From Ciborinia camelliae (lineage: Eukaryota > Ascomycota > Leotiomycetes > Helotiales > Sclerotiniaceae), in the NCBI GenBank assembly GCA_025890175.1, contig JANPYM010000001.1, positions 3,000,288 through 3,064,287 on the forward strand: 64,000 nt of DNA, in the 5' to 3' direction. Positions within the stretch are counted from its first letter, which is position 1; each line of letters starts with the position of its first letter. Below the pieces are notes generated by a model. The model was not told the origin of the DNA, ran no database searches, and saw nothing but the letters and a program-made list of their open reading frames with translations. The position numbers and the translations under genes were made by a program. Shown here piece after piece: positions 1,159-56,143 of this stretch.

Positions 1159-4100
1159 TTAAACATCCTTGACTTTTCCTTTTGTCCTAATAACCAATTC
1201 CTCGCCTTCTCCTTCTTCTGCAGTAACAGAACCTAGAGCTTGCTCCATGTCCGAATCCAGAGACTCGTGTAAAGTTTGCTTGGAAATAGAGAGTTCATCA
1301 TCGAGCTCAGGATCGTCAGATTGTGCATCGTTCTCGAGATCCGATTCTTCGCCCGATTTGGAATTTTCAGATTGTGTGTCGCTTTCGAGATCGGAGGTTT
1401 GACTTGCGGATGAGGTTCTCTTACTTTTTGACCGCTGTAAGCGATCAATATGGCAGGTGCGACTATAGGGTCCATATATATATATGGCCTCACGATCGTA
1501 GCTTTAATAAATCAACCCTTCCACACCTACGACGAGAACCCTCCCATCTCTTTCCAATTGTTGTTCAACCTTCTGGCGTACCCTCATGTACCAACCCTCG
1601 GACTTTATGGTTAGAGGATTCTCGGGTCCGAATATTGTTAGACGTTTTTCATAGACATCTTCAAAATATGAGAGAGCTTCGGAGTATCTTCCTTGGTCGT
1701 CGAGTAATATGGCTAACTCTAATGTATAGGTAATTGTCTTTTGATGACTTACCCCTAATATTCGTTGGCTGTCTTTGATCAGGGTCCGGAAAAGGATTTC
1801 CGCCCCAGCAAAGTTTCCTGCGCTGCGAAGAACCCGAGCAAGGCCGTTTCTACTCTGTAATGTTTGGATTTTCTCAGGTCCAAGAACTCTCTGCTCTATC
1901 TCGATAACTTGTCGAAATAATTCCTCAGCTTTAACATGTTCTTTCCGTTCCATCAGACTCCATGCAAGGTTATGTGTAGCTAGCAATACATCAAGATGCT
2001 CGGGATCATATTTTCCTTTACGAATATTGAGAACTTGCTGGTCTATTTCAAATGATTCTTCGAATTCTGCTTGTCTATTAAGCACATGCGACAATCCGGC
2101 GAGAACATTTAGAGTTTTGGCGTGATTCGGTCCGTATTTTTGCACACTAGCTTCTACCCATCTTCGTGCAGTCATCTCCGATTCCATGTAGAAGCCGCAT
2201 TCTATGTATAGTTCTGTAAACCAGTCATATGGATATACCATATCTTTACTGAACATGGTATATCTTTTGAGTGTTACCATCAGATTTCAATTCTCCTCAT
2301 GAACATTGATGAGACAGTATTTCCTGCCGTAGCGGTAAAGGCATCATAAACGTTTCATCAGTATATGCACTAAGAACCGCAAGGTCGTAGCATAGTTGCG
2401 GAGGAGCGCGCAACCGAATCCAGTCCTGAACCAAAGGGTGTAGAGATAGATGACAATGGTTATCCTTGTCTCGATACCAGCTTTGGATCAAAGAGAGTCG
2501 AGAGAGCTCGTTCAGGATATCCACAAATTTCTGCTGATTCCATTTTTTGTTTTCGTCAAGAAATAAACCTAAATATAAAGAGCTCTTTGTGATCGCTGTG
2601 TCCATATCAGAATTGAGCTCTTTTGAATTGAAATCAGGCTCATACATATAGGAACCACACTTACCAGTGTGCCGAAACTTGAATATATGTTCCGAAGAAA
2701 TCTTGAATATATGTTCAGATATATGTTGACAATCGAAAAAAGCAAACAAAGTCAGAATTACCGACTTGTAATTTTTCTCATCATCGTGCTTCTCTAGTTG
2801 TTGGTAGGAGAGTTCCCAGGTTGTAAAGACATTCAATGCTGTTTCGTCTGCTGCTTCCCCAATTTTACGGCGATATTGGGACAGCTTTGGAGTTTCTTGT
2901 AAAATTGCTTCTCGTTGGCGATTGTAATTGTCTATAAAGTGCGACAGTTTGATCTTTTGGGTTTGAATATATGATCCAGCTTGTGTAATGGCCAGGGGAT
3001 GGTGTCCTAGCCGCTCAACAATAGTGTATGCATCTTCGCGCGATGCGGCATCGCCTACTCGACTTTGTCTAATGAGAAGATCACAAGCATCGTCTCTTGG
3101 AAGGCCGGGTAGCTCAATATCATGATTTGTCTCCGCTAAAGTGGCGGTATCTGCGTGCCTACTCGTTATCAAAATTCGGCCATGTCGCCCCGATGGCATA
3201 AAATCAGGCAGATGAAAACTTGAAGGATCGTCGTGATTGTGGAAAACCACCAACCACGGCTCATGCCATTCTCGAAGTTTGTCTAAGACCAAGGTGACTT
3301 CTTGATTATCTTCTGCAGAATCTGCTGGGCTCCTGATACGCCCCAATATTGTCTCAAAGTCTTTCTTGAGTGTATTATCGGATGTTGCATCGACCCAGAA
3401 TATGGTTTGGATATCTTTTCTTTTTGCACGATGGCAATACTCAAGTGCAATTTGAGTCTTGCCTTGTCCTCCTAAGCCTCGGAGAACAACAACCTTGGGC
3501 CCAGATTCAGAAGACAATCCTTTCTCTATCCTGTCTAGAATATCTTCACGCCCAATAAAGCCACTGACTTGAAGATTTGGTACGATGAAGTGTTTCTTGT
3601 TGGAGGATTTTGTAGAAGGGATATGCTCCGATTGGGAATTCATCTAGGTAATTGTTAGTTGTGCTTGGTGTGTAAACGTAGCGGCTTGTTTGGCTACCGA
3701 TTTGAGTATAGACTTGACGTCCGTAACATCGTTTGCAACCGCGCCAACGGTCAATTTTATGTCTTTTGCATGGCGATTGACTGTCTGCAATAAAGATCTT
3801 GAAAACTTAGTAGATTGAACAAGTTATAGCAACACACTCTTACAAATCAGTCTTTTGGATATATAGGTTCAACGAGCACTTCTCCCTTTCGAGATCCGCA
3901 AGCATAGAGGATATCTTCTTGGCCGCCCTCCCTCCCGTAAATGCTTTTCGTAATTTCATCCATTTTCCATCTTCCGGAGTAGCAAGATAGCTTCCAAGGT
4001 TGTGCTCAAGGTCTTTTGCAGAGCGAAGACAAGTCTTCAGAACGGAAGAAATTTCGGGCGTTTGCAGCGAGGCATTCTTGGTAACTAACTCAAGAAGGGT

Positions 4101-9097: not shown

Positions 9098-11198
9098 ATG
9101 TCGATCTTGCATCTCCTAAGATCAATCGCAATATTCACAGTATTCATCTTCACAATTGAAGGTCTCCCCCCGAGGTTAGATCCCAAATATATATGAGCAA
9201 TTTTAAGTCCACTAATGAGAAGTTCTCAGACTGGAAGAGCTTTCATATGTGCATTCTAAGCATGATTTAGGAATCTACGTCAATTACACCTCTCCTGGGA
9301 TTTGTGAGACTACGCCAGGGGTTAAGAGCTATTCCGGTTATATCCATCTCCCCAAAGAAGTGCTTGGGAAACTCGGCCCGTCTCAAAGCTATGATGTCAA
9401 TACCTTCTTCTTATTTTTTGAATCACGATCCAATCCCACAAAGGATCCGTTGACAATCTGGTTCAGCGGTGGACCCGGAGGATCAAGTTTGATCGCAGCT
9501 TTCCAAGAGAATGGACCGTGTCTCGTGAATCCCGACTCAAATAGCACACGCCTAAACCCGTGGTCGTGGAACACAGAGAGCAATATGCTCTATATAGACC
9601 AGCCAGTCCAAACTGGATTTTCATACGATAGTCTGATGAATGGAACTATCGATCAAACCGGCACAGGAGAGCCTGTGAAATGTAATTCTGAAGCTACAGA
9701 ATCAAATACCACTTTTTATCATGGCGTTTTCGCTAGCCAGAACATTTCGCAGACTGCAAATACCACAAAGATTGCAGCGGGAGCTGTTTGGCTTTTTCTC
9801 CAGTCATGGCTGAGAGAGTTCACAGAGTATGATACTAAAAACGGTCAAGTCAACATCTGGGCCGAATCTTACGGAGGCCATTACGGTCCAGTCTTTACTA
9901 AATATTTCCTTGAGAAGAATAATAAAATAGTCGATGGTTTCCTAGGGGTCATACCTGCAAAGGCCTTGCAGGTACGGACCCTAGGATTGATCAATGCATG
10001 GTTAGTTGAAATGTCCCATAGAAAGGCAATCGCTAAACCCAGGAATAGCATCGATTCTCAGGTTCCCGCAACCACGTGGCCAGAGTTTGCTTACAACAAC
10101 ACGTATGAGATTATTGCGATCAATGAAAGTGTTCATGACAAAGCCATTAATGCCTATGAGAAACCAGGAGGTTGTAGAGATCAGATCGAGTTCTGCCGTT
10201 CGATATCCGTCGGTAACGAATTCGCACAGAACTCCACTGTAAACAGCATTTGCCGGCAAGCCGATGACTGTCAAGAAGACGAAGTTGAAGGACCTTATTT
10301 CTTTTACAGTGGTCATGGAAATTTCGACTTAGCACATGGATCTATTGATCCTTTTCCTCCACCGTTTCACGTTGGTTTCTTGAATCAGCACCACATACAA
10401 AGAGCACTTGGGGTCCCACTTAACTACTCTGATTCTTCTAGTGCGGTGAGAAACAGTTTTAACAACACGGCTGACTATGTACAAGGTGGTGGAATCGAAG
10501 ATATCGAATACCTCCTGGATGCTGGTGTCAATATTGTGCTGGTATATGGCGACCGCGACTATGCCTGCCAGTGGATTGGTGGAGAGAAACTGAGCTTAGC
10601 TCTTGAATTTGTCGGTGCAGAGAGGTTTCGAACATCTGGGTATGCTCCGTTAATTGTGAACAAGACTTATATTGGAGGTATGGCAAGGCAAAGTGGTAAT
10701 CTCTCTTTCACGCGAATATTTCAGAGTGGTCACGAAGTTCCAGCATATCAACCGGAAGCCGCATTTCGTGTATTTTCTCGTTCCATCAAGGGTCTCGACA
10801 TCGGAACCGGAAAAATTAACGTCGATTCCTTTGAATATAGCACAACTGGCATACGGGATGCTTTTCAGGTCAAGAATCCGGTTCCTCCAAAACCACAGCC
10901 TACTTGTTATGTGCATAACCTGAAATATTCCTGTACAGAAGACCAGATAAAAAATGTGATTCAGGACACGGCTGTAATCCTCGATGGTATTGTAGTCGGT
11001 TACACCAATGGCACGAGTGAAGGGCTGGTTGATCTATGGACGGGCGGTCCTGGTAATTACACAGGTCCTGCTTGTTTTGACTTCTGCAATGTTACGCAGG
11101 GCGATCAAGATGATTACTACCAACCGATAACTTCACAGAAAGAACAAATGGGGCTGCAGAACCCGTCTCAGAAGGCTTTGATTGACGACACAAACTAA
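9098..11198 (+). CDS. Secreted serine carboxypeptidase, family S10
   Basis: Two exons, 9098-9174 and 9230-11198, are separated by a 55-nt intron (donor GTTAGA, branch CTAAT, acceptor TCTCAG) that keeps phase. The product is about 681 residues. Exon 1 encodes a signal peptide (MSILHLLRSIAIFTVFIFT). Family landmarks are WFSGGPGGSS near residue 104, the nucleophile motif ESYGGHYGP (Ser about 239), the acid motif VYGDRDYACQWIG near 465 and the histidine motif QSGHEVPAYQP (His about 527). There are many N-glycosylation sites. A Cys-containing extension follows the catalytic domain. S10 enzymes remove C-terminal residues from peptides in the secretory pathway or outside the cell. The gene lies upstream of the ABC transporter and the repeat-peptide genes, where a carboxypeptidase could trim C-terminal Lys-Arg after Kex2 cleavage. 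That link is inferred from position only. Confidence 0.88.
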
Positions 11199-12630: not shown

Positions 12631-15600
12631 ATGCCTTTAAAATGTGAAGGTCCAACTTGGAACAACAGCGAACTCTCACCTTGCATACTTCAAAAGTAAG
12701 TTAAGCTCAAATCACCCGTTTTTACTTTGTTCCTGAGAAATCTTTTGACATAATATGAAGAATATTTCAGATTCTGCTACCTTTAGCCATTTGCGGAATA
12801 TCATTGGCAAGTTTCCTCTGGGAGCTTGTACATAGATCAGTTCGAAGCCGGAGTCTCTTCATTGTCAAGAATACTGGGAATTCTCTTCTCAATGACAGGT
12901 TGCGTGAACCCCAAGAGGAGAATGATTTCGAAGGGCGACCAGAATGGGCCAATAAAAGGGATAGGCGGATACCAATCAATAACAAATTCTTATTGTTCGC
13001 ACAGAGTTCGATTTGTATGTTGCTACTTGGCATCGAAATTGGAGCAGCTATCAAGAATACAAAAACCTCTAATGGAAAATGGGTTATTGTTAGTAGCATA
13101 ATATGCTGGTCGTACATTTTGTTTTTATCTCTGCTCCGATTTCAGATTGCATTCTCTACGAAGCTTTGGTACCATGTCTCCTGGATATACAGTTTGCAGT
13201 GGTTGTGTTTTCTTCTTCCTTTCCGGAATGCATTATTGCACACAAAACACCTCTTATATAGACCTTACGTATGGATCCTTGAGTTTGTGTTTTTAACTTT
13301 CTTAATGCTATCAGCAATCGCAGTTGGAAGAAGAGAAGGGGTATCGATGACACAGAAAGGTAAAGATCGCAGGGTCTCGGGGATACAATCAGCAAGTGCA
13401 CTCGGATTATTATCATTTGCTTGGCTTGATCCAATGCTTCGCGAGGGATATAGAGGAACATTGGAGGCGTATCATATTCCAAAGCTCGAGTTCAAGGACC
13501 GAGGTGCTGAAGTTATTAATGTTGCAGATGGACTTCGGTAAGTTAGATCTCTAACTGTCGTGATGGCAACTCTTGGAAATTAGCTTTCTAATCCGCAATC
13601 TTAGCTCAACTGGTAGCTTTGTTGGCCTCCTCTGGAGGTTTTCTCGTACTCGGCTTCTTCTTCAGACTATATGGGGCATTATTTACGCCGTCAACACATT
13701 CATACCCACATTACTCTTGAAAGCAATCTTACAGTACTTTGAATCGCCATCTTCAAAATCATCACCCTGGTTGTTTGCCATTCTTCTATTTGTATCAGGT
13801 ATTGTATCGGCAGTTGCGGGCAGCCAGCCACTTTGGATTGGTCGTAAATTATGCATAAACCTTCGGACACTGATTGTCGCCGAAATCTACCAGAAAGCCC
13901 TGAGACGACAAACAGCTACTTCGCATGAAGATGATTCTGACATAGAGAATAAGAAAACTTCTCCAACAGTGGGAAAGATAATCAATCTCATGTCTGTAGA
14001 TTCTGTCAAAATCAGCGAGGCTGGTGCGTATCTCTTCTCTCTCTGGGCCGAGACGCCTGTGCAAATTTCTGTTGCTGTTATCCTGTTATTTTCCATTCTC
14101 GGTGTTTCTTCACTCACTGGAGTTATCATCATGATACTTCTCATGCCCGTGAATGCTTTTATTGCGCAGAAACTCACCAACACTCAACAAAAGATTATGA
14201 GCGCTACGGATGAGCGAATCCAGGCTACCAACGAATTGCTCCAAAGTATACGCTTGGTCAAACTATTTGCTTGGGATATTCAAATGCGAAAGAATGTTGA
14301 AGTGAAGAGAAGGCTAGAGCTCAAAATGTTGAGATCCCGTTTTTTGATCTGGTCGCTGTTCTCTCTTTTAACACGAGCAACGCCGCTGATCATAACTTTC
14401 ACAACATTCTTGGCTTATGCAAAATTTCAAAAGAAAGCTTTAACTCCCTCGGTAACTTTTCCGGCGTTATCGCTTTTTGGAATACTTCAAGCACCTTTGA
14501 ACCAAATCACCAGTCTTGTTGCACGATTCCAGGCTTTCAAGGTCTCTCTTGTTCGAGTCCAAGAATTTCTTCTTGAACCAGAGACAGAAAAGTATGAAGT
14601 TTTAGGAGGTTACTCTAGGGAGAGTCGCCACGAACTCGGATTCAAAAACGCCACTATGACATGGACAGTGTCATCATCAAAATACAGCGATCAAGAGCCG
14701 ATTGTGGATAACGGACATGTAACAGATTCTATGCAGCCCGGCAATATACCTTTCAGATTAACTGATATTAATCTGAAGTTTCAAGCTGGCAAATTGAATG
14801 TTATTGTTGGACCGACAGGTAGTGGTAAAACATCATTATTACTTGCGTTATTGGGAGAGATGTCTTTGTTGCACGGGCGTATCCGTCTCCCAAACGATGG
14901 ATCCCCATGGAACACTACCCCTGGTTCGAGTTTTCAAATCAAAAACAAAATAGCATATTGTGCACAGCAAGCTTGGTTGCTCAATGACACTGTCAAGCAG
15001 AACATTCTTTTTGCAAGTCCATGGGATGAAGACCGCTATCGACAAGTTATCAGTTGCTGCGCACTCGAGACGGATTTCGCAATTTTCGATCGCGGCGACA
15101 GCACTCTTGTAGGTGAGAAGGGAGCTGCTCTCTCAGGTGGGCAAAAGCAGCGCATTTCACTTGCTCGGGCGCTTTACTCCAATGCTGCTCACCTGATTCT
15201 TGATGACTGTCTGAGTGCCCTAGACTCAAAAACTGCGCAATGGATTTACAAACATGGAATCCGAGGTCGGCTAATGCAAGGCCGCACGTGTATACTTGCC
15301 ACACACAACTTGGCGCTCTGCATTCCTGGCGCCGATTTTGTTGTGGCCATGGAAATGGGAAGAGTGGTACAGCAAGGCCCATCAAGCGACTTCTTGAAGA
15401 CCAATCCATTTATAGCCTCAGCAGGCCATTCACCAAGCTCCATCTCAGACCTACCAAAGCAGCAAGAAAGCAATCATACAAGGGTACACAGAGAATTAGA
15501 GGCATCAAGTTTCCAATCACAAACCATCGAGGAAAGCAAGAGAGAAGGTGTGGTAGCTGTTAAGACTATTCGGATGTACTTGAAAGCAATGGGGGGTCGT

Positions 15601-17650
15601 ATTTTTTGGATTTGCGCTATGTTTCTCTTCTTAGTGTCTCCTCTAGGAGCAGTAGCTTCTAATATTTGGTAAGATAGAAATCTTTGACTCTTATCTCAAT
15701 AAAAAGAAAGGGCTGGCATGGGTTGTCTGCAAGCCCTCAATATTTTTGGGAATCAAATCATCTCCTTTGGAGCCTCCTTCCCCTTCTACTAAACAACTGC
15801 TAATTTGTTCAAACTTGGCAGGGTTCGAGAATGGTCAAACTCCGAAAGAAGTACTGCAACCACATCGATTAATAATGGCCGGGACTCTGTAAGTATAACG
15901 CCACTTTCAATCCAGCCCTCTATGAACGAAGATCAAAAGTTGAAATACTATTTGGGCATATATGCGTTGATTGGAATTGCATACCTAATTATATCTCTGG
16001 CACGGGACATAGTTCAATTTGGAGGCTCGTTGAAAGCATCAGGTAATCTTCACAAGCAACTTATTGAAAGTGTTACCAAAGCCAAGTTTTCATTCTTCGA
16101 TAAAACACCAATGGGCCAAATCGTCAACAGATTTTCGACAGATATCGAGCTTCTCGACCAAGAACTAGCACCTGTAGCGGTTCAGACCCTTGATTGTGTT
16201 ACATCCATCGCTACAACCATCATCATGATTTCGATTTTTACCCCATACTTTCTTGTCGCAGTAGCATTGGTATTTTCCATTTATCTTTATATCGGCAAGT
16301 ACTTCTTACGCACCTCTCGAGATCTAAAACGCATCGAGGCAGTGACAAAAAGCCCCCTGTATCAACATTTCGGCGAGACCTTAAACGGATTAACTACTAT
16401 ACGAGCTTATCAAAGTGAGAAGATATTCATAAATGAAAATCTAGATAGGATCGATAACAACAATGGGCCTTACTTTTATTTATGGGCTGCCAACCGCTGG
16501 CTAGCTTTTAGGTTAGATGCAATGGGTGCCTTTGTGACCTTTTGTGCCGCAGCTTTTATCATCTCAAGCCATGGAAGGATTGATGCTGGCGCCGCGGGTC
16601 TAAGTTTATTGTATGCAGTGACGTTCACGGAAAACGTAGTATATCTAGTGAGGTTACAAGCTAACAATGAGCAAAACCTGAACTCGTAAGTCAACCACAT
16701 CATATACCAGGGCTTACCGGGTAGATAGCAGCTAACGCAACATCAGAATGGAAAGAATTGAAGAATATATTCAGTTAGATCGCGAAGGAAATACAAACAG
16801 TCAAGAATTTAAACCGCCTCTTTCCTGGCCTTCGAAAGGAGCGATAGAATTCGTCAACTTTTCAACACGCTACAATCTATCCTTGGCTCCTGTTTTACAC
16901 CAAATCAATCTCAAAATCTTGCCACAGCAGAAGATCGGAGTTGTTGGTCGTACTGGAGCCGGGAAAAGCTCGCTCGCAATGGCACTATTTCGTGCCTTGG
17001 AAGCGGATGAAGGTCAAATTCTCATCGATGGTATTGATATCGGTTCCGTTGATCTCACGACCCTAAGACAGAGAATTTCTATTGTGCCACAAGAGGCGGT
17101 TCTTTTTTCAGGGACTATTAGAATGAATCTTGATCCGATGAATGAGTTTTCCGATTCTCACATTCTAGATACTCTTTCGCAACTGGGTCTTACCGGCTCT
17201 CAGGCGTCAAATTCAGTTGATACATTCTCTGTGGACTCTTCAACATCCTCAAATTCCGCAGATCGTACACGGGAACAATTTTCTAATCTTTCCTTCTCTA
17301 TTTCAGAGGGTGGTGGCAATATCTCACAAGGTCAGCGACAGTTACTCTGTCTTGCTAGGGCTCTTCTTAAGGGCTCGAAACTTATTTTGATGGATGAAGC
17401 AACTGGTTCAGTTGACCACGATACGGAGAAGAGAGTTCGAGAGGCAATTAGAGATATTGATTCTACGATGATCGTTATTGCTCATCGCTTGAGGGCAATA
17501 TTTGACTATGATGTTGTCGTGGTCCTGGATAAAGGTAGAATCATTGAGACTGGAAGCCCAAAAGAGTTGGTTCACTCTAAAAAGGGAGCATTTTGGGAGA
17601 TTTGTAAAGAGAGTGGCGATGCGGAAATCTTAGCGATGGTGGAAACTTGA
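12631..17650 (+). CDS. ABCC-type (MRP-like) full ABC transporter
   Basis: Proposed exons are 12631-12695, 12761-13537, 13605-15668, 15822-16685 and 16747-17650. They join in phase to 1,557 residues. The layout is an N-terminal membrane region, TMD1, NBD1, TMD2 and NBD2. NBD1 has Walker A GPTGSGKTSLL (near residue 683), signature LSGGQKQRISLARAL and Walker B HLILDDCLSALD, where Asp replaces the usual catalytic Glu, as is common in ABCC NBD1. NBD2 has Walker A GRTGAGKSSL (near 1323), signature ISQGQRQLLCLARALL and Walker B LILMDEATGSVD. The family exports conjugates, drugs and secondary metabolites at the plasma or vacuolar membrane. Introns 2-5 are well supported. The short first exon and its AAG acceptor are tentative, and the third exon could begin at 13584 instead. 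Its place beside the repeat-peptide genes makes it a possible exporter, not proven. Confidence 0.87.
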
Positions 17651-18056: not shown

Positions 18057-19064
18057 TCACATCTCTCCTGCAGCCACAGCATCAATAATCATTTTATCAT
18101 TGACATCAAAGAATCTTTCTGCAGCTCTCTCCTTAGACCAAGCATGTATGGCGTCGAAATTTCGGCACGTATGCATTTGAGTTGTGAACTGCGGAATGAG
18201 ATATTTCACCTGAGGATCCCACTTCAACATAACAGGCGAGAGATCAGAGTGGCACATGACCTGTTGACGCAGATAATCGAGACAATGTTCTCTGTGTAAA
18301 CGAACAAGACGGGGTGGATCGTCAAAATCTTCGGGGTAATACTCTGCGTCAAAGGCTTTACGGACGAGATTCTGTAATCATTTAGTACAACACCACGAAA
18401 TGGATTTTCCTTGACGGTTATTGAATAGAAAAACTCACCACACAATGCAGAGCATGGAAGACATCCAATCCTGTTCTCCACATGTTCCCCAGTGGTTCTT
18501 CGAAAGTTTTGTTCTTGACAGCCAAGGCTTCCTCGCCTTCCAAATCCATAGCAGAGGAGTAGATGAGATCGGTCCATGCCTTGTCAATCTCTGGACTCGG
18601 GACACCGAAGTAGTACGGTTCACCCTCAACATGCTCTCGATAGAGCTGGCCATTTTCGTCTTTGAGGAGACCGCCGCGGAATCGGACTTGATGGGTCGAA
18701 ATTACGGCTTTGGCGATACCTGGGAGGATTGCAATCTTAGCTACAAAGTTATTGGGAAACAGAGGAGAGAGAGCTGATTTGACATACCCAGATCGGTATC
18801 AAAACCAGCTTCATATGTATTTGTTTCTCGGCATGTGAGTTTAGGTTTCTGACACAGAGATACATGCGATTGCTTTGCAAGCACCAGGCAGAGGATGGAC
18901 AGTATCGCAGTCGTAGTCATCCATGGTAATGCTGGACCGAGATTGGTTGGAAACCATCGATTTCTTTTTGCAGTACGGCCAAAGGGTCTTTCTCCCGATT
19001 TCTGTATAAAAAACTCTTCTTCTTGATCTCCATCTCGTGAAGGGTTCTCTGAAGAAGAAGGCAT
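18057..19064 (-). CDS. UstYa-family (DUF3328) oxidase, candidate RiPP cyclase
   Basis: Exons 18788-19064, 18439-18740 and 18057-18371 (minus strand) join in phase to 297 residues. Introns are GTATGT...TTTGTAG (47 nt) and GTGAGT...TTACAG (67 nt). A short cytoplasmic N-terminus is followed by one membrane helix (about residues 47-63, PWMTTTAILSILCLVLA) and a lumenal domain. Both family hallmarks are present: HALHC at residues 188-192, in the context VFHALHCVNLVRK, and HREHC at 219-223, in HREHCLDYLRQ. The second intron falls right after the first motif. UstYa-type proteins are membrane oxidases that form the Tyr side-chain ether macrocycle in ustiloxin, phomopsin and asperipin; others halogenate or oxidise small molecules. 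The gene is divergent from the repeat-peptide precursor (starts 1.7 kb apart), which supports the RiPP role. Confidence 0.92.
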
Positions 19065-20745
19065 CTTGCAAAGCTTGTTTCGACTCTGAGAAATGAAAAT
19101 TGGGAAAGGGGGAAGAGTGCAAGAAACGATGTAGGTGTAAAGGTTTTCCTTAGACTTCACCAATGCCAGATACTACCTAAGCAATGGAAGATCGATTGTG
19201 CCTCCTTTCCTTTTCAACTAGACCGAGGAGGGTGGTAACTATCAAACGAGAAAGGAATTGGTCCTTCGAAGCAGCCAGCACAAACTCGGTGGCGTCTACT
19301 ACCTGACGAGCTTGATGTTGATTGTTTCCTTATCTGAGCTGCACATTTCCGTGTTGTGGTGACAATATCGATCTGGATCGAGGCTTTCATTGGCCATATA
19401 CTTACAAACGAGTAGCAATAGTTTTTGACACCTCTCCCGTGAAACGAGCAATTCTCGTTGCATCTCTGGCCCTTTTTATGCAGAGAATTTGTAACAGTCT
19501 TTTTAATATCCGTAATAGGTTTGTATTTTTCGTGGCAAGAATTGCGGCATCGACTTATGATACATTTGGTATTTTTATATTACAATCTTTATTTCTTTAA
19601 ATTTTCAATAATAATTCAATCCTTTTCTTTTAGATAATAAATGAAACCTATACTTTAAATTTCAATTCATTATATTCATTTTTTGTAAAGTTATTATTAC
19701 GTTAAAATCACTGTTTTTGGTGTAAATACTGGCCGGAAAGGGTAAGGGACTTGATAGAAAACACCAGGCGTGCGCGATGAGCCGAGGCTGCAGCTCTTGC
19801 CTTTAATTGGCACTTCGATTCGGGGTTGATGTGGTATTGAATGCCGCACAGCAGTTCCGTGCCGTGTCGTACCGTAACATTATCGGTAGCCGCTGAGGGT
19901 AATGCCCCCACACACGGCAGTGTAAATGATACACAAGCTGCAGTGACTTGATAGTTTATACTGAAATTCAAGACAGATAGGAGAACCTTTTCTTTATTAG
20001 ATACCAGAGATTACATTCGATCTAGCCATGTTCCCAATCCAACCACGTCTATCACTTTCTTTGAGCCATGGACGAGGTGTCCAACGTATTGCCATTGCGA
20101 GCGTATGACTGATGTGGTGTTGACGAAGCAGAAGAAAGTAGTGTACACGGGTAGAAGTTGAATTTGCTACCCTTCATTCACCGTATCGCTCGTAGACTTA
20201 CATTCCCTTCGCGCCCGAAATACCACATGGCTTGTTAATTCGATACGAGTCATATGGGACTACATAATCGAATCAACGCTATTCTGTGCTTCTGAGGACC
20301 TTTCCAAATGCCAATCGGCGATGGTTGAATCTATTCTTCGTAATACATACCCCGGATTGAGATGTGTTGCTGTCTCCTTAGGGAACTCGAAACTACGATA
20401 ACATCCTCAAACTGCGAAGATCAAAGGTGAATTGGGAAGGTATCTGCAGTGCAAGTAACGCATCAATACACGGTGAAGTGATCACTGCGCATCTACGACC
20501 CGATTCTGAGAGGCATCTTGAGGGGAATGTAACAATTACTTGTGGGGGGTTTCCGCAATCAGGTAATTAGCATCATGATTGATATTCATGTTTCCTTGGA
20601 TGATCTGAAGAGATGGTTTGCATATAAATTCTCTTTCCCTCGACTCTCTAACAGTCTCTCTTTCTGCAGTCACAGATATATTATCACACTGAAGTCATAA
20701 AATCCTTAACCAATTCACAACGTGCTACTTTTACAAAAAGTCATT
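19065..20745. promoter_or_regulatory. Shared divergent promoter region of the UstYa-like gene and the repeat precursor
   Basis: This 1.68-kb spacer separates two divergent start codons (19064 minus and 20746 plus), so co-regulation is plausible. A TATA-like TATAAA lies at 20623-20628, 118 bp before the precursor ATG. CCG-N9-CGG at 19872-19886 fits a Zn2Cys6-type factor site. About 19560-19700 is strongly A/T-rich. No further UstY-like gene, tyrosinase or regulator was found here. Confidence 0.5.
19708..19971 (-). CDS. Doubtful small secreted-protein-like ORF
   Basis: An 87-codon minus-strand frame inside the divergent promoter. Its start, MNFSINYQVTAACVSFTLPC, could act as a signal peptide, and the segment is more G/C-rich than its surroundings. 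I do not recognise it, no introns or UTR signals support it, and it may be a chance frame or a relic of another sequence. Confidence 0.15.
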   Translation of the reverse strand: MNFSINYQVTAACVSFTLPCVGALPSAATDNVTVRHGTELLCGIQYHINPESKCQLKARAAASAHRARLVFSIKSLTLSGQYLHQKQ

Positions 20746-21562
20746 ATGAAGCTTTCAATCGCTAGTTTAGTAGTTGCTCTCGCAGCTTTCTCGGCTGCTG
20801 CTCCTGTTGCAGGCAAGTATCTTTGATTTCCTTTTCTATCAAGTCAGCCCTAACGACATCTCCAGAACCTGACCGTTCCGTTGTTGGAACTGGATCTGAT
20901 CGCTACAAGAGAGAACCAGATCGCTCAGTTGTGGGAACTGGATCTGATCGCTACAAGAGAGAGCCAGACCGTTCCGTTGTAGGAACTGGATCTGATCGTT
21001 ACAAGAGAGAACCTGAGCCAGATCGTTCCGTTGTGGGAACTGGATCTGATCGCTACAAGAGAGAGCCAGACCGTTCCGTTGTAGGAACTGGATCTGATCG
21101 CTACAAGAGAGAGCCAGATCGCTCAGTTGTGGGGACCGGCTCTGATCGTTACAAGAGAGAACCTGAGCCAGATCGCTCTGTTGTTGGAACCGGGTATGTA
21201 AATTCTTTTCTCCCATACTTTTACTACTTGAGAAATTGCTAACCTCCCCAATCTCAATAGTTCCGACCGCTACAAGAGAGAAGCCGAACCTGACCGCTCT
21301 GTTGTGGGCACAGGCTCCGATCGCTACAAGAGAGAGCCTTCACCTGAGCCAGACCGCTCTGTTGTTGGGACTGGGTATGTAAAGTCTTTATTGCTCTACT
21401 TTTTCTGTCCGAGAAATTGCTAATTCCCTTGATTTAAACAGTTCGGACCGCTACAAGAGGGAGCCAGATCGTTCCGTTGTAGGAACAGGATCTGATCGCT
21501 ATAAGGAGCGTGGCGTCTACAGCAACTACGAGGGCATAGGTAAGCTTAACTTTGACAATTAG
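20746..21562 (+). CDS. Kex2-processed repeat precursor, candidate dikaritin-type RiPP precursor
   Basis: Exons 20746-20812, 20866-21193, 21261-21374 and 21442-21562 join in phase to 209 residues. A signal peptide (MKLSIASLVVALAAFSAAAP) is followed by ten units of DRSVVGTGSDRY. Nine end in KR, the Kex2 site; the last reads KER and leads into a Tyr-containing tail (GVYSNYEGIGKLNFDN). Units are preceded by EP, EPEP, EAEP or EPSPEP, X-Pro/X-Ala dipeptides of the kind removed by Ste13-like peptidases. All ten cores are identical in protein while codons vary, which indicates selection on the peptide. The first intron has a GC donor (GCAAGT). Introns 2 and 3 sit at the same codon of the repeat. Ustiloxin-type precursors share this design, with a Tyr-containing core before KR. 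A secreted signalling peptide without a crosslink is the main alternative. The stop at 21560 could be bypassed by a further intron (GTAAGC at 21540). Confidence 0.9.
20866..21508 (+). repeat. Ten tandem copies of a 12-residue core with Kex2 spacers
   Basis: Intragenic tandem repeats of mainly 48 or 54 bp encode EPDRSVVGTGSDRYKR-type units. Copies 7 and 9 are each interrupted by a 67-nt intron between the second Gly (GTG) and Ser of the core. The two introns resemble each other (GTATGTAAA start, GAGAAATTGCTAA before the end), so exon plus intron was duplicated as a block. Confidence 0.93.
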
Positions 21563-22395
21563 AGCGGTAGGGGGCATTCGAACTAGAAATCTTGAGACGG
21601 GAGTGAATCCGAGCATTTCTAATACTCTCAAAGTTATATAAGCTGATTCTAGCTCACTGTTAGGTACTCTAGTTGCTAAAGCGAGCTACTAGCGGTTGCT
21701 GGTAAAATCTGGGCTGGATTGATGGTGGGAAAGTAGTTGAGAGTAATCTGTTTCTATGATCTAGTCACTATTGAGGTTGACTTAAAATTCATCCCTTATT
21801 TTGATGAGAGACTATATCGGAATTCGTTCTCTATTCCGATGATATTGAGAAGTCTAGTTTATTTATATCTGTCGAGAAGAAAACAACCGCCACATTCATT
21901 TAAATATCGAGAAACCCCAAATGCTTGAGAAAAGATTATGTGACTTGCAGCGAAATATATAAAGCGCAAAGAGTTAGGCAGCGAGATCATTTCCGAAATA
22001 GTCCAATAGCCTGTCTGCAACACAAAAATATTGCATTAGGAATGATTCGTGATACCTGGTAATGAATGCCATTTGACTATTCTGGGTCATTGAAGTGAAT
22101 ATGCTATGAAATGAGACAGGGAAGACAAGTATATATATCAGTGATTCCCACCAATCTCTCTTGCTACTCATTCCTCTTTTCCTCTTCCTTTAGAAATTCT
22201 TTCTTCTCTACATAATATCTGTGCCCCCGTTTTTCTGAGCACACCGAGCAACTCACAATATTGCCTCTCGTCCAAGACATGACATAAAAATCTGACATCT
22301 ATTTGTTTTAAAAACTTCGAAGACCCCAGCTCGAGTGTATCAAAAAAGATTCGAACTCTCAGGCCTAACTATTGTATTCTTTTTTCAAAACCTCC
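21563..22395. other. Spacer between precursor and MFS transporter
   Basis: No additional gene seen. A possible downstream exon of the precursor cannot be excluded because a GTAAGC donor overlaps its last codons. Confidence 0.4.
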
Positions 22396-24061
22396 ATGGA
22401 GCGGATAGTCTCAAGCCGTCGTGTGCCATATCTATATGCACTGTATACAACTCTCAATACGGCTGGCACAGTTCTGTGTGAAGCACCTCTGCTCCGTCTC
22501 GTCGAGCGCTCGTTCTGCCGAGAATACTATTTGAAGAACGACCCTAGCTTGATCGGGCTTAATGGGCAAGTTGAAGAGAGATATTGTAAGGTCGATGACG
22601 TCCAATCAGCAGTGGCAGAACTGCTTGGCTGGGAAGCTTTTCTGACAGCTATGATTGGTAGGTCTTGGAAAGAAGAAATATGGATATTGTGATAAGTTAA
22701 GAGAAAGGAAGAGAAAAATGCTAACTTTGAAGCCAGGCATAATTGTTGCACCATTTTACTCATATATCTGTACAAGAGTAGATAGAAGATGGGTAATTTT
22801 AGCTGGTATGGGCAGCTGGGTAGTTTCTACTGGCTTTGTTTTTGTCGTTGGTAAATACACCCACCCCTCAAGCGACTTCAAAATTATTGAACTAACTAAT
22901 CGTCTCCAATCAGGTTCCTTTCAAGAAGTATTCGACATCAGATTTGTATTGTTGGCCAATCTTTTCACTTTTATCGGTGGTGGGCCAACAGTTACTTTTT
23001 CTATCATCCATGCCATTATCGCTGATTCCCTGCCACATTCCTCATTGTGAGTACACTTATCTCACAGATATATTATCACTGACGTCTTTTCAAGAGCCTC
23101 AGCACTTTATTTCATCAGAGCAGCTGGTCTCGCCGTCGACGTTGGTGCACTAGCCGCGGCGGCCAAATTGATGACATTAAACCTATGGTTGCCGCCCTTG
23201 GTTGGGTTTCCAATCTACATTACGTGCCTTCCAATACTTGCTCTTATCCCTGGAGCCCAAGAAGACGGATATAAAATTGTTAACGGAACGGAAATTAAGA
23301 TAAACGAAGAATTTGAACTCCAGTCTAATGAAATCTCAACTCAAACGAATCTCGATTCTCTCGCAGCTAGTCCTCGTAGCTTATTAGGAAATGGAAACTC
23401 AAGATCTTTGACTAAGGGATTGACAGCCCGCATTCGAAAAATATATCTGATTTGCCACAGACTATTTGCGGGCAACCCTATCTCACAAGCCTGCCTGATC
23501 ATCTATTTTCTGGACTCTTTAGCTACCAATGTAAACGGTATCGCACCGCAATGGGCCAGCAAAAACCTAGGTTGGACCATTGCCGAGACAAATTACTTGC
23601 TCTCTTTCCGCTCTTTTATAAGCGGCATTGTTCTCATTTTGCTGCCTTTACTCAGTCGTATCCTTCGTCATCGAGACATTTCGTCTTCAAAAATTGACCT
23701 TGGCATAACCTCCTGCAGCATGATTTTCCTCCTCCTCGGTTCTGTAGCTTTCGGATTCTCTTGGTCCAAGTCGGTATTTATTATGGCTTTGGCGGTGGAT
23801 AGTCTAGGCGGTGGGTTTCATGATGCTTTAAAAAGTTACTGCACAGCCAAGGTGCCACCGCAAGAAGTCACCCAGCTTTATATTGGCATTGCAACAGCTG
23901 CTAGAGTTGGAAACTTGATAGGAAGTCCTTTGTGGGCAGGAATGTTTGTAATTTCAATGGATGCAGGCAGAGCATTATCTGGATTACCATTCTGGGCGAG
24001 TGCCGTAGTATGGAGCGTGGTTGGATATTTGCTTTGGGGTTTAAGAACAAAGTCATTGTAG
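22396..24061 (+). CDS. Major facilitator superfamily transporter
   Basis: Exons 22396-22657, 22737-22850, 22914-23046 and 23095-24061 join in phase to 491 residues. The second intron (63 nt) is read-through in frame but has a donor, an ACTAAC branch and a CAG acceptor. The start at MERIVSSRR leads into the first membrane helix. The family pattern CREYY...DPSLIGLNGQVEERYCKVDDVQ in the first loop is typical of fungal MFS proteins of the general substrate/multidrug type. RVDRRW fits the loop 2-3 signature. A long cytoplasmic loop (about 23270-23440) separates the two six-helix halves, and LGWTIAETNYLLSF begins the second half. Substrate unknown. As the next gene after the repeat precursor, it is the best candidate exporter of the mature peptide, like AprT or UstT in known clusters; this is inference. 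Confidence 0.85.
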
Positions 24062-37265: not shown

Positions 37266-38409
37266 ATGAACCAATCCACACGCGAGCCTGCAGCTCCCCC
37301 CGACACCTCTCCCGCGCAACCATTCTCCAAAAGCTTCTCGAACGTTTCCGACTTCGAAGACTTCTCTGCCTACCTTAACTTTCCCACGCATTCACCCCCG
37401 ACCACCCATCCAATGTCTAAGCGTGTAGATAGACAAGAAATCGATCCCAACGCGAGCTTTTCCCTCTCACACAACCACCCATCGTCCACCGACACGTCTG
37501 CTCTCAAGTCGGAGATTCCCTCGCCAGCCAGTGCTCGAAATAAGAGACGCGCCACGGGCCCAGCGACTGCGTCGAATCCTTCGGCATTCAACATGCAGTC
37601 GGGTTCATCCATGGCAGGACCTTCCTCGGCGGGCTTAGATGATTCCAACATGACCTCGTCAATGGCACCACCGGCCAAAAAAAGTCGCACCAATACTCCC
37701 TGGACACCTGCCGAAGAGCAGAGATTGAAGAATATGAGAGATGCGGGTAACAGCTGGGCGGATATTGCAAAGGTAAGAAGATGAGATAAAAAGGCTCCTT
37801 TGGAGCGATCCAAAAACGACATCTCATGTCGAGTCGCACAAAGCCTCGAGATAAAATGAAGACGCGAATCTAAACATGTATTTGCAGACTTTCCCGGCCA
37901 GAACTGAAGGGAGTGTGAAGAAGCACTGGTATAAGGTAAATACATCCTCTCATTTTTTGCACCATGATGCTTGGCTCGCTCGGATGAGAGTCACTGTGTG
38001 GATGATGGACATGGGTTAACGGATTTTTAGGACATGCATTATGCGGAATTTGCGGAAGATGAGGTACGTTCTGTCTTTGCGGCATCATGCATACGGTACG
38101 TGCTGATGCTCAAATAGAGTCAGGCTTTGCTCGCTGCCATCAAGGATTACGAGGCGAATAAGTGGAAGGCTATTGGGCAGAAAGTCGGGAAGCCCGCTAA
38201 GGTTAGGCTCGATTTTTCCTCCTTGTATGAGTTTGTATCTCGAGACATGCTGGTCTCGAGATACGTATAGTGTTGAGGTATTGGTACTGGTCCTGGTACT
38301 GGTACTGATATACGGAATGACCTTATGAATCGTCTGCTGACCCACACCCCCACCTTCCCAATAGGCATGCGAACAATACGCCAAAGATAATTTTGGCGGC
38401 AAAATATAA
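37266..38409 (+). CDS. Two-repeat SANT/Myb-like protein
   Basis: Exons 37266-37772, 37888-37935, 38031-38063, 38118-38201 and 38365-38409 all join at phase 0 to 238 residues. The N-terminal 150 residues are Ser/Pro-rich and disordered, with basic clusters (RNKRRA, PAKKSR). A first SANT-type repeat follows (TPWTPAEEQRLKNMRDAGNSWADIAK, then TFPARTEGSVKKHWYKDMHYAEF). A second is EDESQALLAAIKDYEANKWKAIGQKVGKPAKACEQYA. Both contain the spaced Trp residues of the Myb fold, and exon borders cut the first repeat after helix 2. A nuclear DNA-binding or chromatin role is likely; the target is unknown. Exon 4 is followed by an unusually long intron (163 nt) with a perfect hairpin. The 3' part of this gene is copied after the N gap. 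Confidence 0.85.
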
Positions 38410-39253
38410 AGGGGGGGGCTGGGAGGGATGCTTTGTTCACGTTTCTTCGAAAGTACTATAACTTTGGCTTGGCTCTTGGTTTGGGGAGAAAGTTACTTTA
38501 CCTATATGTACAAGCATGGATGTTATTTGCCTGCCCAAGGTCCAAACCATTCCATGACCATCTTCCCTTCTCTCTTTTTCAAGTTTTCTCTCCCCTCCTC
38601 GTCTGGGATGGTGTCATGGTATCATGAACGAATGAATGGATCAATGGATGAACGGGATGGAAAGGACGGAAGGGCGGGATTTTTCACGGCGTTGAATTGC
38701 GACGACGACATTTTTCTTTCTTTCTCTTTTCTCCCCTCCCTTTTTTTAAAAAAATCTTGAATGACAATGGCGATCGCAGTGGCCATGGCAATGGTGCACC
38801 GCATGGCGCATGATCGGATCTTGATTGATATATTTCTCCTTCACATTTTTTTCTTCCGATTTTCCATATCATCTCAAAAAGTTCCTCTTCCACACGTGGT
38901 GCTTGACAAACTTTGATTCTTAGCTAGTGAGCGAGCGTGGGAAACTTGGTGGCCTGCTTTCTTCTTTTTCTTCTTCTTCTGCTTCTTCTTCTTTACATCC
39001 CTAGGGTATTTTTCTTCTTCTTGAATTTGGAGCATTGTTTCTCGAGGATAGGAGAGGATATGGTAGGCCAGGCTCAGATAGGGCGTATGTATGGATGGGG
39101 AATGGAGGTATGATATATCATGGAAAGGACGGGGGGGGGAAAGATAGGAAAGATAGGATAGGAAACGAAAGGAAATGAACGGAAAGAAGAGGAGTATTCC
39201 GAGGGGGAAGGGAGGGGAAGAAAAGGTTTCACTCAAAGCTTGACGCTTGAAAC
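37502..39253 (+). repeat. Left copy of a near-perfect 1.75-kb direct repeat
   Basis: The sequence from 37502 to 39253 is repeated at 39264-41014. The only difference I found is one G in a homopolymer (8 G at 38411-38418, 7 G in the second copy). The two copies abut a 10-N gap. Confidence 0.95.
38235..38264. other. Perfect intronic hairpin in the SANT/Myb gene
   Basis: GTATCTCGAGAC, a 6-nt loop (ATGCTG), then GTCTCGAGATAC: a 12-bp perfect stem inside intron 4. A short GGTACTGGTCCTGGTACTGG repeat follows it. The second copy is at 39997-40026. Confidence 0.8.
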
Positions 39254-39263
39254 NNNNNNNNNN
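39254..39263. other. Assembly gap (10 N)
   Basis: Ten N bases sit exactly at the junction of the two repeat copies. Confidence 0.99.
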
Positions 39264-40171
39264 TCTCAAGTCGGAGATTCCCTCGCCAGCCAGTGCTCGA
39301 AATAAGAGACGCGCCACGGGCCCAGCGACTGCGTCGAATCCTTCGGCATTCAACATGCAGTCGGGTTCATCCATGGCAGGACCTTCCTCGGCGGGCTTAG
39401 ATGATTCCAACATGACCTCGTCAATGGCACCACCGGCCAAAAAAAGTCGCACCAATACTCCCTGGACACCTGCCGAAGAGCAGAGATTGAAGAATATGAG
39501 AGATGCGGGTAACAGCTGGGCGGATATTGCAAAGGTAAGAAGATGAGATAAAAAGGCTCCTTTGGAGCGATCCAAAAACGACATCTCATGTCGAGTCGCA
39601 CAAAGCCTCGAGATAAAATGAAGACGCGAATCTAAACATGTATTTGCAGACTTTCCCGGCCAGAACTGAAGGGAGTGTGAAGAAGCACTGGTATAAGGTA
39701 AATACATCCTCTCATTTTTTGCACCATGATGCTTGGCTCGCTCGGATGAGAGTCACTGTGTGGATGATGGACATGGGTTAACGGATTTTTAGGACATGCA
39801 TTATGCGGAATTTGCGGAAGATGAGGTACGTTCTGTCTTTGCGGCATCATGCATACGGTACGTGCTGATGCTCAAATAGAGTCAGGCTTTGCTCGCTGCC
39901 ATCAAGGATTACGAGGCGAATAAGTGGAAGGCTATTGGGCAGAAAGTCGGGAAGCCCGCTAAGGTTAGGCTCGATTTTTCCTCCTTGTATGAGTTTGTAT
40001 CTCGAGACATGCTGGTCTCGAGATACGTATAGTGTTGAGGTATTGGTACTGGTCCTGGTACTGGTACTGATATACGGAATGACCTTATGAATCGTCTGCT
40101 GACCCACACCCCCACCTTCCCAATAGGCATGCGAACAATACGCCAAAGATAATTTTGGCGGCAAAATATAA
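39264..40171 (+). pseudogene. Truncated second copy of the SANT/Myb gene
   Basis: This copy holds the end of exon 1 (39264-39534) and exons 2-5 (39650-39697, 39793-39825, 39880-39963, 40127-40171). They are identical in coding content to the gene at 37266. It lacks the first 79 codons because it begins at the N gap. It is best read as an assembly duplicate and should not be counted as a second gene. Confidence 0.85.
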
Positions 40172-41014
40172 AGGGGGGGCTGGGAGGGATGCTTTGTTCA
40201 CGTTTCTTCGAAAGTACTATAACTTTGGCTTGGCTCTTGGTTTGGGGAGAAAGTTACTTTACCTATATGTACAAGCATGGATGTTATTTGCCTGCCCAAG
40301 GTCCAAACCATTCCATGACCATCTTCCCTTCTCTCTTTTTCAAGTTTTCTCTCCCCTCCTCGTCTGGGATGGTGTCATGGTATCATGAACGAATGAATGG
40401 ATCAATGGATGAACGGGATGGAAAGGACGGAAGGGCGGGATTTTTCACGGCGTTGAATTGCGACGACGACATTTTTCTTTCTTTCTCTTTTCTCCCCTCC
40501 CTTTTTTTAAAAAAATCTTGAATGACAATGGCGATCGCAGTGGCCATGGCAATGGTGCACCGCATGGCGCATGATCGGATCTTGATTGATATATTTCTCC
40601 TTCACATTTTTTTCTTCCGATTTTCCATATCATCTCAAAAAGTTCCTCTTCCACACGTGGTGCTTGACAAACTTTGATTCTTAGCTAGTGAGCGAGCGTG
40701 GGAAACTTGGTGGCCTGCTTTCTTCTTTTTCTTCTTCTTCTGCTTCTTCTTCTTTACATCCCTAGGGTATTTTTCTTCTTCTTGAATTTGGAGCATTGTT
40801 TCTCGAGGATAGGAGAGGATATGGTAGGCCAGGCTCAGATAGGGCGTATGTATGGATGGGGAATGGAGGTATGATATATCATGGAAAGGACGGGGGGGGG
40901 AAAGATAGGAAAGATAGGATAGGAAACGAAAGGAAATGAACGGAAAGAAGAGGAGTATTCCGAGGGGGAAGGGAGGGGAAGAAAAGGTTTCACTCAAAGC
41001 TTGACGCTTGAAAC
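39264..41014 (+). repeat. Right copy of the 1.75-kb direct repeat
   Basis: Matches 37502-39253 at an offset of 1762 (1761 after the G-run). After 41014 the sequence becomes unique again. Most likely both contig ends held the same sequence and were not merged. Confidence 0.95.
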
Positions 41015-55400: not shown

Positions 55401-56143
55401 CTCAATGTAGTGGTGTACTTACTATTTTGACGCCGGCTAAGCAGATCCAAAAGGGAAGTGCATGTACACAAGTTCGAGCTTATGCTGTTACAGTTGATGG
55501 ATCTCCATCATCATCAACATTGGTAACAGCTGTTGCTTCAAGTACAGGATTAATCGCTGAATCGTCTACTGTACCATCTGGAACAGTTGATTTGGTGACA
55601 AGTTCTTCAACTTTCTCACCTATTGCAACCTCAACAACGATCGCTGGATGCCCCGTTGCACCATTCTTCAAGATTCTTGTAAATGAGACAGGAATGCCTT
55701 CACAATATCTATACGATCCTGTCTCATTTGATGATGACGCTTTGTCATTTACTACTGATATATCACAGAGTTTGGTCTTCTCCTTGTCCCCTGCTACAGG
55801 CCAACTTCAATTCAATATTGTAGATTTCTTTGGAAACCCAGTCTTATTAGCATCTAATCAAGATATGCACAATGCTGGGAACGAGGCAATCTTCTTCACT
55901 ACCGCAACCAAATATCAACAACTTGGTTATCAACCCGTTGTTGCAACTGTTAAGCCAGATTGTTCTATCGGTTTAGCCTTACCATACAACGCCGCTAATA
56001 TCATACAATCTTGTCACGGATCGATATACTTGATGTTAACACCTGGCGCAGGTTGCGTTACGGTGACATTACAGATGTTGCCATTTAATCCTTCTGCCAC
56101 AACCACTTCGTCTATTTCGACGACGACGTCTTTTTTAGTCTAA
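52417..56143 (+). CDS. Giant WSC-domain Ser/Thr-rich cell-wall protein, N-terminal part
   Basis: Exons 52417-52720 and 52776-56143 give 1,223 residues before a TAA at 56141. A signal peptide (MRPNSLPKSLLQVAAYGIALL, cut near VHA) starts the protein. A short TVTRYRISVVPQFTTY region follows, then a Ser/Thr-rich spacer and a WSC domain (about 53095-53385) with eight Cys (DCYSDDEG, HCIAFCSAA, HCYCSD, LCGGG). WSC domains bind wall glucan and serve as stress sensors or wall anchors. Next come 12-13-residue ETPG repeats (53612-54192), more Ser/Thr/Glu spacer, and two related domains of about 150 residues (55018-55500 and 55650-56085; FNVVIDEPGKPMQWL and FKILVNETGMPSQYL) that I do not recognise. The motif IPPVNNFVSGSS recurs here and after the stop, so the gene probably continues. 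No membrane helix is visible before 56141. Confidence 0.82.
53612..54192 (+). repeat. Intragenic ETPG repeats (12-13 residues)
   Basis: Fourteen ETPG units and one EAPG variant. The first half alternates VTETPGVSLSEV and VTETPGVSVTEV with nearly identical 72-bp DNA pairs, which points to recent expansion. The second half has diverged (ETPGETSTAEIV, ETPGATSIVEIV). Confidence 0.9.

Follow-up and report, generated by a model that had tools for sequence, protein, structure and literature searches.

A UstYa oxidase gene paired with a pheromone-style repeat precursor gene in Ciborinia camelliae, a likely dikaritin-type locus

A DUF3328/UstYa protein with two HxxHC motifs is described as the class-defining enzyme of the dikaritins, a type of ribosomally synthesised and post-translationally modified peptide (RiPP); an older five-gene definition also includes a tyrosinase, a methyltransferase and a peptidase, and clusters without some of these exist (PMC12048977). 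The asperipin-2a cluster of Aspergillus flavus is reported to contain a precursor gene (aprA), a UstYa homologue (aprY), a transporter gene (aprT) and a reductase gene (aprR), and its core, FYYTGY, is cross-linked by ethers that join Tyr side chains to beta carbons, the cluster containing one UstYa homologue (PMC6514808); a Tyr-O to Phe-beta-carbon ether is among them (PMC12186524). Here we describe a related gene pair from Ciborinia camelliae, found in a window of 64,000 nucleotides (assembly GCA_025890175.1, contig JANPYM010000001.1, positions 3,000,288 to 3,064,287 of the forward strand; coordinates below are those of the window unless another contig is named). A gene for a UstYa/DUF3328 oxidase and a gene for a Kex2-processed repeat precursor are divergently transcribed, 1.7 kb apart. 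The two are likely a dikaritin-type RiPP pair in which UstYa oxidises the core, and probably extend a known peptide class by a member that is undescribed and pheromone-like in design.

Like the asperipin-2a cluster, the locus is small, with one UstYa homologue, a Kex2-repeat precursor, a transporter gene nearby and a core that ends in Tyr. It differs in the core itself, DRSVVGTGSDRY rather than FYYTGY, in a transporter match that is below threshold, in the X-Pro/X-Ala ladders of its precursor, and in that no reductase match corresponding to aprR was obtained among 20 window proteins scanned against Pfam (19 open frames and one spliced transporter model, a part of the window's genes, with 7 of the 20 matching no family). 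With the ustiloxin and phomopsin loci it shares a secreted, KR-separated repeat precursor and a UstYa-family oxidase with two HxxHC motifs. It lacks their Tyr-x-Ile core, one UstYa gene is seen here as opposed to two and five (PMC7329392), and no tyrosinase, methyltransferase or S41 peptidase appeared among the scanned proteins. The ustiloxin and phomopsin precursors are not predicted substrates of Ste13 in the analysis of Le Marquer et al. (PMC6339444), whereas the window precursor contains Ste13-type ladders.

The other close likeness is to ascomycete alpha-pheromone precursors of the Ccg-4/Ppg type, which also have a signal sequence, repeated cores and X-Pro/X-Ala dipeptides after KR. Unlike those, the window core is unrelated, without Cys or Trp, and a UstYa gene lies next door. 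A Ccg-4 homologue of Rutstroemia is a further case of a pheromone-type Kex2-processed repeat protein (KEP) near DUF3328, two genes away there, with Tyr-bearing pieces (PMC7329392); that protein mixes pheromone-like and other pieces, whereas here a single peptide that ends in Tyr makes up all ten cores, with no pheromone core among them.

The precursor, its cores and its ladders

The precursor gene (20746-21565, forward strand) encodes 209 residues, with an apparent N-terminal signal sequence and ten identical cores, in four exons modelled at 20746-20812, 20866-21193, 21261-21374 and 21442-21565. Splice sites in the gene models were derived from sequence alone, and the signal sequence, as well as the membrane helix of the UstYa protein, was called by eye rather than with a predictor. 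Predicted intron 1 (20813-20865) has a GC-AG boundary, and its removal would join PVA to EPDR such that the X-Pro/X-Ala ladder before core 1 is preserved; predicted introns 2 and 3 (21194-21260 and 21375-21441) have GT-AG boundaries and interrupt the core array. A donor-like GTAAGC at 21540 makes an alternative 3' end possible, and the unspliced reading was adopted. The gene models and translations place both the precursor and UstYa genes where the sequence-only reading of this DNA had put them.

The core array (20871-21502, forward strand) holds ten exact copies of the 12-residue DRSVVGTGSDRY, each with a single Tyr at its C-terminal end (Tyr12), set apart by the spacers KREP (five times), KREPEP (twice), KREAEP and KREPSPEP (once each) and followed by the C-terminal tail KERGVYSNYEGIGKLNFDN. 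The sequence-only reading had described a secreted precursor with ten KR-separated identical cores. The ten copies are indeed exact, but KR stands on the C-terminal side of only nine, as core ten is followed by KERG and the Kex2 site behind it is missing. Dibasic Kex2 sites between repeats together with a secretion signal are the features of a KEP, and a signal peptide with repeated cores at Kex2 sites is likewise that of a dikaritin precursor, given in both cases that the signal was judged by eye. Pfam also matched the precursor to KaiB (8e-7), a match rejected as a repeat artefact. No second precursor copy was found in the genome (46.2 Mb on 27 contigs), where one further weak match was obtained (expectation value (E) 0.06, 31% identity).

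The core peptide is under selection. The DNA of all ten cores differs, and each of the 11 variable columns is a third codon position; at least 17 changes have occurred within the cores and all are silent, where 30 of the 108 possible single changes would be silent. The naive product of the silent-change chances, 3.5e-10, assumes independence and ignores the shared descent of the copies, and therefore serves as a guide only. Introns 2 and 3 have the same length, 67 bases, and the same place within cores 7 and 9; they are identical at 39 of 58 inner bases, where the maximum in 1000 shuffles was 28 of 58, indicating that the introns were duplicated along with the repeat units. Given that the duplicated introns have diverged by a third and the cores are residue-perfect, the repeat is old and has been held by selection for the peptide, as the silent-only variation among the ten cores also indicates.

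A ladder of X-Pro or X-Ala dipeptides is the Ste13 signature of alpha-pheromones. All nine KR-preceded spacers consist of such dipeptides (EP five times, EPEP twice, EAEP and EPSPEP), with lengths that vary by whole dipeptides, so that, as in alpha-pheromone precursors, predicted Ste13-type cleavage sites follow the Kex2 site. Signal peptidase cleavage ahead of APVAEP would leave a ladder before core 1 as well. A P-domain match and a DPPIV_N match occur once each in the genome, the former in a subtilase whose layout is Kex2-like and the latter, in the Ste13-type gene at C1:3686 kb, in a protein with a single N-terminal membrane helix (both layouts judged by eye).

Pheromone genes with the canonical WCGRPGQPC in tandem are found elsewhere in the genome, one on contig C7 (C7:164732-165670) with 13 matches and Ste13 ladders, and another on contig C6 (C6:490646-491041) with four matches and long Ala/Pro and Ser/Glu/Gly-rich spacers; one lone match to the motif lies on contig C3. 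The introns, UstYa family and pheromone genes are those of a filamentous ascomycete, and the pheromone core points to a Leotiomycete. The C7 precursor has KRDAEP and KREALPEA before WCGRPGQPC and a ladder immediately behind the signal sequence, as is predicted for the window precursor, and it also includes longer non-ladder pieces. The pheromone core motif, which we take to be WCxxxGQxC, is not fitted by DRSVVGTGSDRY. Because the core differs and the canonical genes lie elsewhere, identity of the window precursor as a standard alpha-pheromone precursor was rejected.

The oxidase and its pairing with repeat precursors

The UstYa gene (18057-19064, reverse strand) encodes 290 residues, with one apparent N-terminal membrane helix, in three exons modelled at 19064-18788, 18719-18439 and 18371-18057. 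The UstYa domain (PF11807) is matched over residues 53-268 (E 8.8e-40, 137.3 bits, cut-off 25). Translation and alignment locate the first HxxHC motif, HALHC, at residues 181-185 (18442-18456, reverse strand) and the second, HREHC, at residues 212-216 (18282-18296, reverse strand), and both His and the Cys of each are invariant in the four aligned proteins, namely the window UstYa and its relatives P0002, P0003 and P0004. The protein therefore has the two motifs that mark the dikaritin enzyme. A divergent UstYa with both motifs had been proposed from the sequence; the motifs are intact, but "divergent" is too strong for a protein that scores so far above the family cut-off. According to PMC12435403, DUF3328 is a family of binuclear copper enzymes: the HxxHC motif of CctR, a UstYa-family hydroxylase on Golgi, endosome and vacuole membranes, binds two copper ions, alanine mutants of the motif are inactive, and UstYa-family proteins have also been implicated in hydroxylation and halogenation.

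Identity to the window UstYa in the alignment is 69% for P0003, 58% for P0002 and 37% for P0004, the last of which comes from a 25.3 kb contig of a lichen fungus metagenome-assembled genome and showed 40% identity over 43% of the query. No UstYa relatives were found in viral contigs, and the one PDB match by sequence (E 0.82) is not meaningful. An AlphaFold2 model of P0002 was discarded, with a mean predicted local distance difference test score of 46.6 and a predicted template modelling score of 0.33. For the precursor, only P0001 (E 1.3e-4) and P0005 (E 0.8) were among the matches listed, one of the protein searches having scored the best 7994 candidates by shared words. P0001 was rejected as a relative, as the only pieces in common are GTGS-like ones within a WSEP repeat, which were attributed to chance. 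Four fragments of the core are absent from 5.39 million open papers, a scope that excludes the supplementary tables of KEP surveys, and among the literature matches listed STE13 and DUF3328 occur together only in PMC7329392.

Of the 58 UstYa matches in the genome, 57 exceed the Pfam cut-off, and merging of the 58 at 10 kb gives 31 groups. The sequence no more than 3 kb from a match amounts to only 0.52-0.58% of the genome, so that pairing with a precursor by chance is unlikely. Sixteen other UstYa windows were examined, drawn non-randomly from 15 of the 31 merged loci (the lower-scoring part of the list and three of the best), and 4 of them hold a Kex2-repeat precursor at most about 3 kb from UstYa. 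Given that the scan was crude, in six frames and without splicing, this count is a lower bound. Pairing is thus habitual in this genome, real but ordinary. In a survey of 7878 KEPs, DUF3328 was nearby in 22%, with a peak at the adjacent gene, and Tyr was present in 65.6% of the repeats of DUF3328-linked KEPs as opposed to 38.2% otherwise (PMC7329392).

The four other UstYa-linked precursors differ in their cores. The precursor of locus L035 (contig C5, 526400-536300; L035 1509-2156, minus strand) has the repeat DTNSNGHRINEAVDDGVPDTHYKR, with several repeats ending in HY before KR. Those of L040 (C1:1744200-1754100; L040 6726-7148), L042 (C10:443000-452900; L042 848-1483) and L053 (C9:127500-135500; L053 1561-1872, minus strand) are built around SPNVETILPDPGEIG, AVEIPNADGSSDAAELWKKR and GDAKEALNAYQMFSEIERR, respectively. 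An X-Pro/X-Ala ladder was not seen in any of the four. The same scan of 10 further short UstYa loci (3.1-3.9 kb) revealed no Kex2-repeat precursor, and a control with five single-base shuffles per locus, for four-letter words only, gave none. Three-letter-word matches in L036 and on the minus strand of L042 were dropped as chance, as was a match at 53829-54113 of the window, which is another frame of a repeat-rich gene there.

Maturation, product and rival explanations

In the proposed maturation, the precursor would enter the secretory pathway, as its signal sequence suggests, and Kex2 would cleave behind each KR. A Ste13-type membrane dipeptidyl aminopeptidase would strip EP, EPEP, EAEP or EPSPEP from the amino end and a Kex1-type carboxypeptidase would strip KR from the carboxyl end, to leave DRSVVGTGSDRY with a computed linear [M+H]+ of 1311.629. 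The computed [M+2H]2+ values are 656.318 for the linear core, 655.310 after loss of 2 H, 664.316 with one O added and 769.366 for the form that retains EP, whose [M+H]+ would be 1537.724. UstYa, by analogy to CctR a binuclear copper oxidase bound to the membranes of Golgi-type compartments, would oxidise the core either before or after cutting. The likeliest product, with a chance that falls somewhat short of even, would carry an ether from the Tyr12 phenol to the beta carbon of an upstream residue, with the loss of 2 H. This ether is favoured because the asperipin-2a core also ends in Tyr, and a macrocycle through Tyr, as the sequence-only reading had proposed, may result.

The array might instead be a non-coding or non-functional tandem repeat with a protein reading that arose by chance, given that the window is rich in tandem repeats (34 rows in the repeat list). 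That explanation is highly improbable in the face of ten different DNA copies of one peptide with third-position changes only, duplicated introns that have diverged by a third, and a start, splice sites and stop that are all intact. A coding array could still yield a linear, unmodified signal peptide, secreted by way of Kex2, Ste13 and Kex1, with the UstYa neighbour acting on something else. The nine spacers, every one a whole-dipeptide ladder, resemble those of the genome's own alpha-pheromone precursor (C7:164.7-165.7 kb), and mushroom KEPs with Ste13 ladders are described as yielding linear or minimally modified peptides (PMC9769878). Close pairing with UstYa, however, is rare by chance here and recurrent for KEPs both in this genome and in the KEP survey, where Tyr is also more frequent in the repeats of UstYa-linked KEPs (PMC7329392), and the genome has its canonical WCGRPGQPC pheromone genes elsewhere, so a linear product seems unlikely.

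UstYa could also oxidise the core without forming a ring, by hydroxylation, dehydrogenation or other oxidation at sp3 C-H of Val, Ser, Thr, Asp or Arg. Such a variant of the dikaritin-type reading would be in keeping with the hydroxylation and halogenation attributed to the family (PMC12435403), with the title of a reference in PMC12186524 on dehydroamino acid formation by UstYa proteins in phomopsins, and with the position of the single Tyr, at the end of the core and seven residues away from the Val-Val pair. It is set against the report that one UstYa homologue, AprY, suffices for bicyclic asperipin-2a (PMC6514808), which means that a single UstYa gene can make rings, and we consider it rather doubtful.

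Several observations weigh against the assignment of the locus as a dikaritin-type pair. Umemura reports that pheromone or mating-factor KEPs are almost never near DUF3328, with three exceptions (PMC7329392), and the spacers of the window precursor resemble those of linear pheromones. The core has neither the YxI motif of the ustiloxin and phomopsin type nor the FYYTGY motif of asperipin, which bears out the comparison made in the sequence-only reading. No reductase, tyrosinase, methyltransferase or S41 peptidase was found among the 20 proteins scanned. No relative with both genes was found: the matches listed in the precursor searches (~5.8 billion proteins) were only P0001 and P0005, and the contigs that bear the two closest UstYa relatives, P0002 and P0003, are no longer than 1354 and 1298 bases, too short to reveal a neighbouring gene.

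Neighbouring genes and what the pair may mean

The claim made here is for the UstYa and precursor genes only, with the transporters nearby as candidates. A gene for an MFS-type transporter lies 0.8 kb downstream of the precursor (22396-24061, forward strand), with a four-exon, 483-residue model picked by eye among several possible; the MFS_1 match (E 1.3e-7, 31.3 bits) is below the curated cut-off of 33.4. An adjacent MFS transporter had been counted as a part of the cluster. The gene is there, but it is weak evidence, given the sub-threshold score, an ABC transporter that is likewise close, and the survey PMC7329392, in which MFS genes show no crowding around KEPs on the scale of that of DUF3328, those within 15 genes averaging 7.7 genes away. 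The predicted protein may be an exporter or a mere neighbour. The ABC transporter exons (ABC_membrane and two ABC_tran; 13567-17647, forward strand) converge on the UstYa gene, and the distance between the two is shorter than that from the MFS gene to the precursor.

A single-frame S10 serine carboxypeptidase gene (9219-11195, forward strand) lies on the far side of the ABC transporter as viewed from UstYa. Of the tyrosinase, methyltransferase and peptidase in the five-gene definition, the 20 proteins scanned gave nothing apart from this S10 enzyme, and a P450 was likewise not found among them. The S10 enzyme is not claimed for the cluster, because carboxypeptidase Y (E 5.9e-34) fits it better than Kex1 (2.3e-16) and S10 matches are many in the genome (26 stretches). 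Upstream stretches of the UstYa and precursor genes, delimited so as not to overlap, share 39, 14 and 4 words of 8, 9 and 10 bases, where shuffles gave means of 24.2, 6.6 and 1.9 and maxima of 43, 15 and 6; the MFS upstream stretch shares about as many words with either as shuffles do, or fewer.

Elsewhere in the window are a MUS81-type nuclease at 5.1-7.2 kb, a haem peroxidase at 26.4-28.0 kb, and an NB-ARC open frame next to a tetratricopeptide one (1507-3643, reverse strand), which together make up a gene for an NLR-like STAND protein. An open frame of 1124 residues (52769-56140, forward strand) encodes a WSC domain and contains several arrays of tandem repeats (39-42 bases). At 37502-40469 are two pairs of 300-base stretches, each pair 100% identical and ~1.76 kb apart, which were either duplicated in tandem recently or are artefacts of the assembly.

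Umemura proposes that cyclic forms derive from linear ones (PMC7329392), and PMC9233826 raises the question of whether dikaritins stem from pheromone genes. An origin of cyclic fungal RiPPs from pheromone-type precursors would predict a combination such as that of this precursor with UstYa. The locus fits that idea, although a shared design does not amount to common descent. It is possible, though we put it forward tentatively, that a pheromone-style precursor is coupled here to a UstYa copper oxidase, such that a cross-linked or oxidised signalling peptide would be released through the maturation line that serves the fungus's own mating pheromone. If the dikaritin-type reading is true, the locus adds an undescribed fungal RiPP core and a case in which trimming of the Ste13 type and oxidation by UstYa may come together. 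The pair makes testable the origin of dikaritins from linear or mating-pheromone precursors (PMC7329392, PMC9233826), as well as whether the DRSVVGTGSDRY peptide is trimmed by the pheromone proteases, oxidised and active as a signal.

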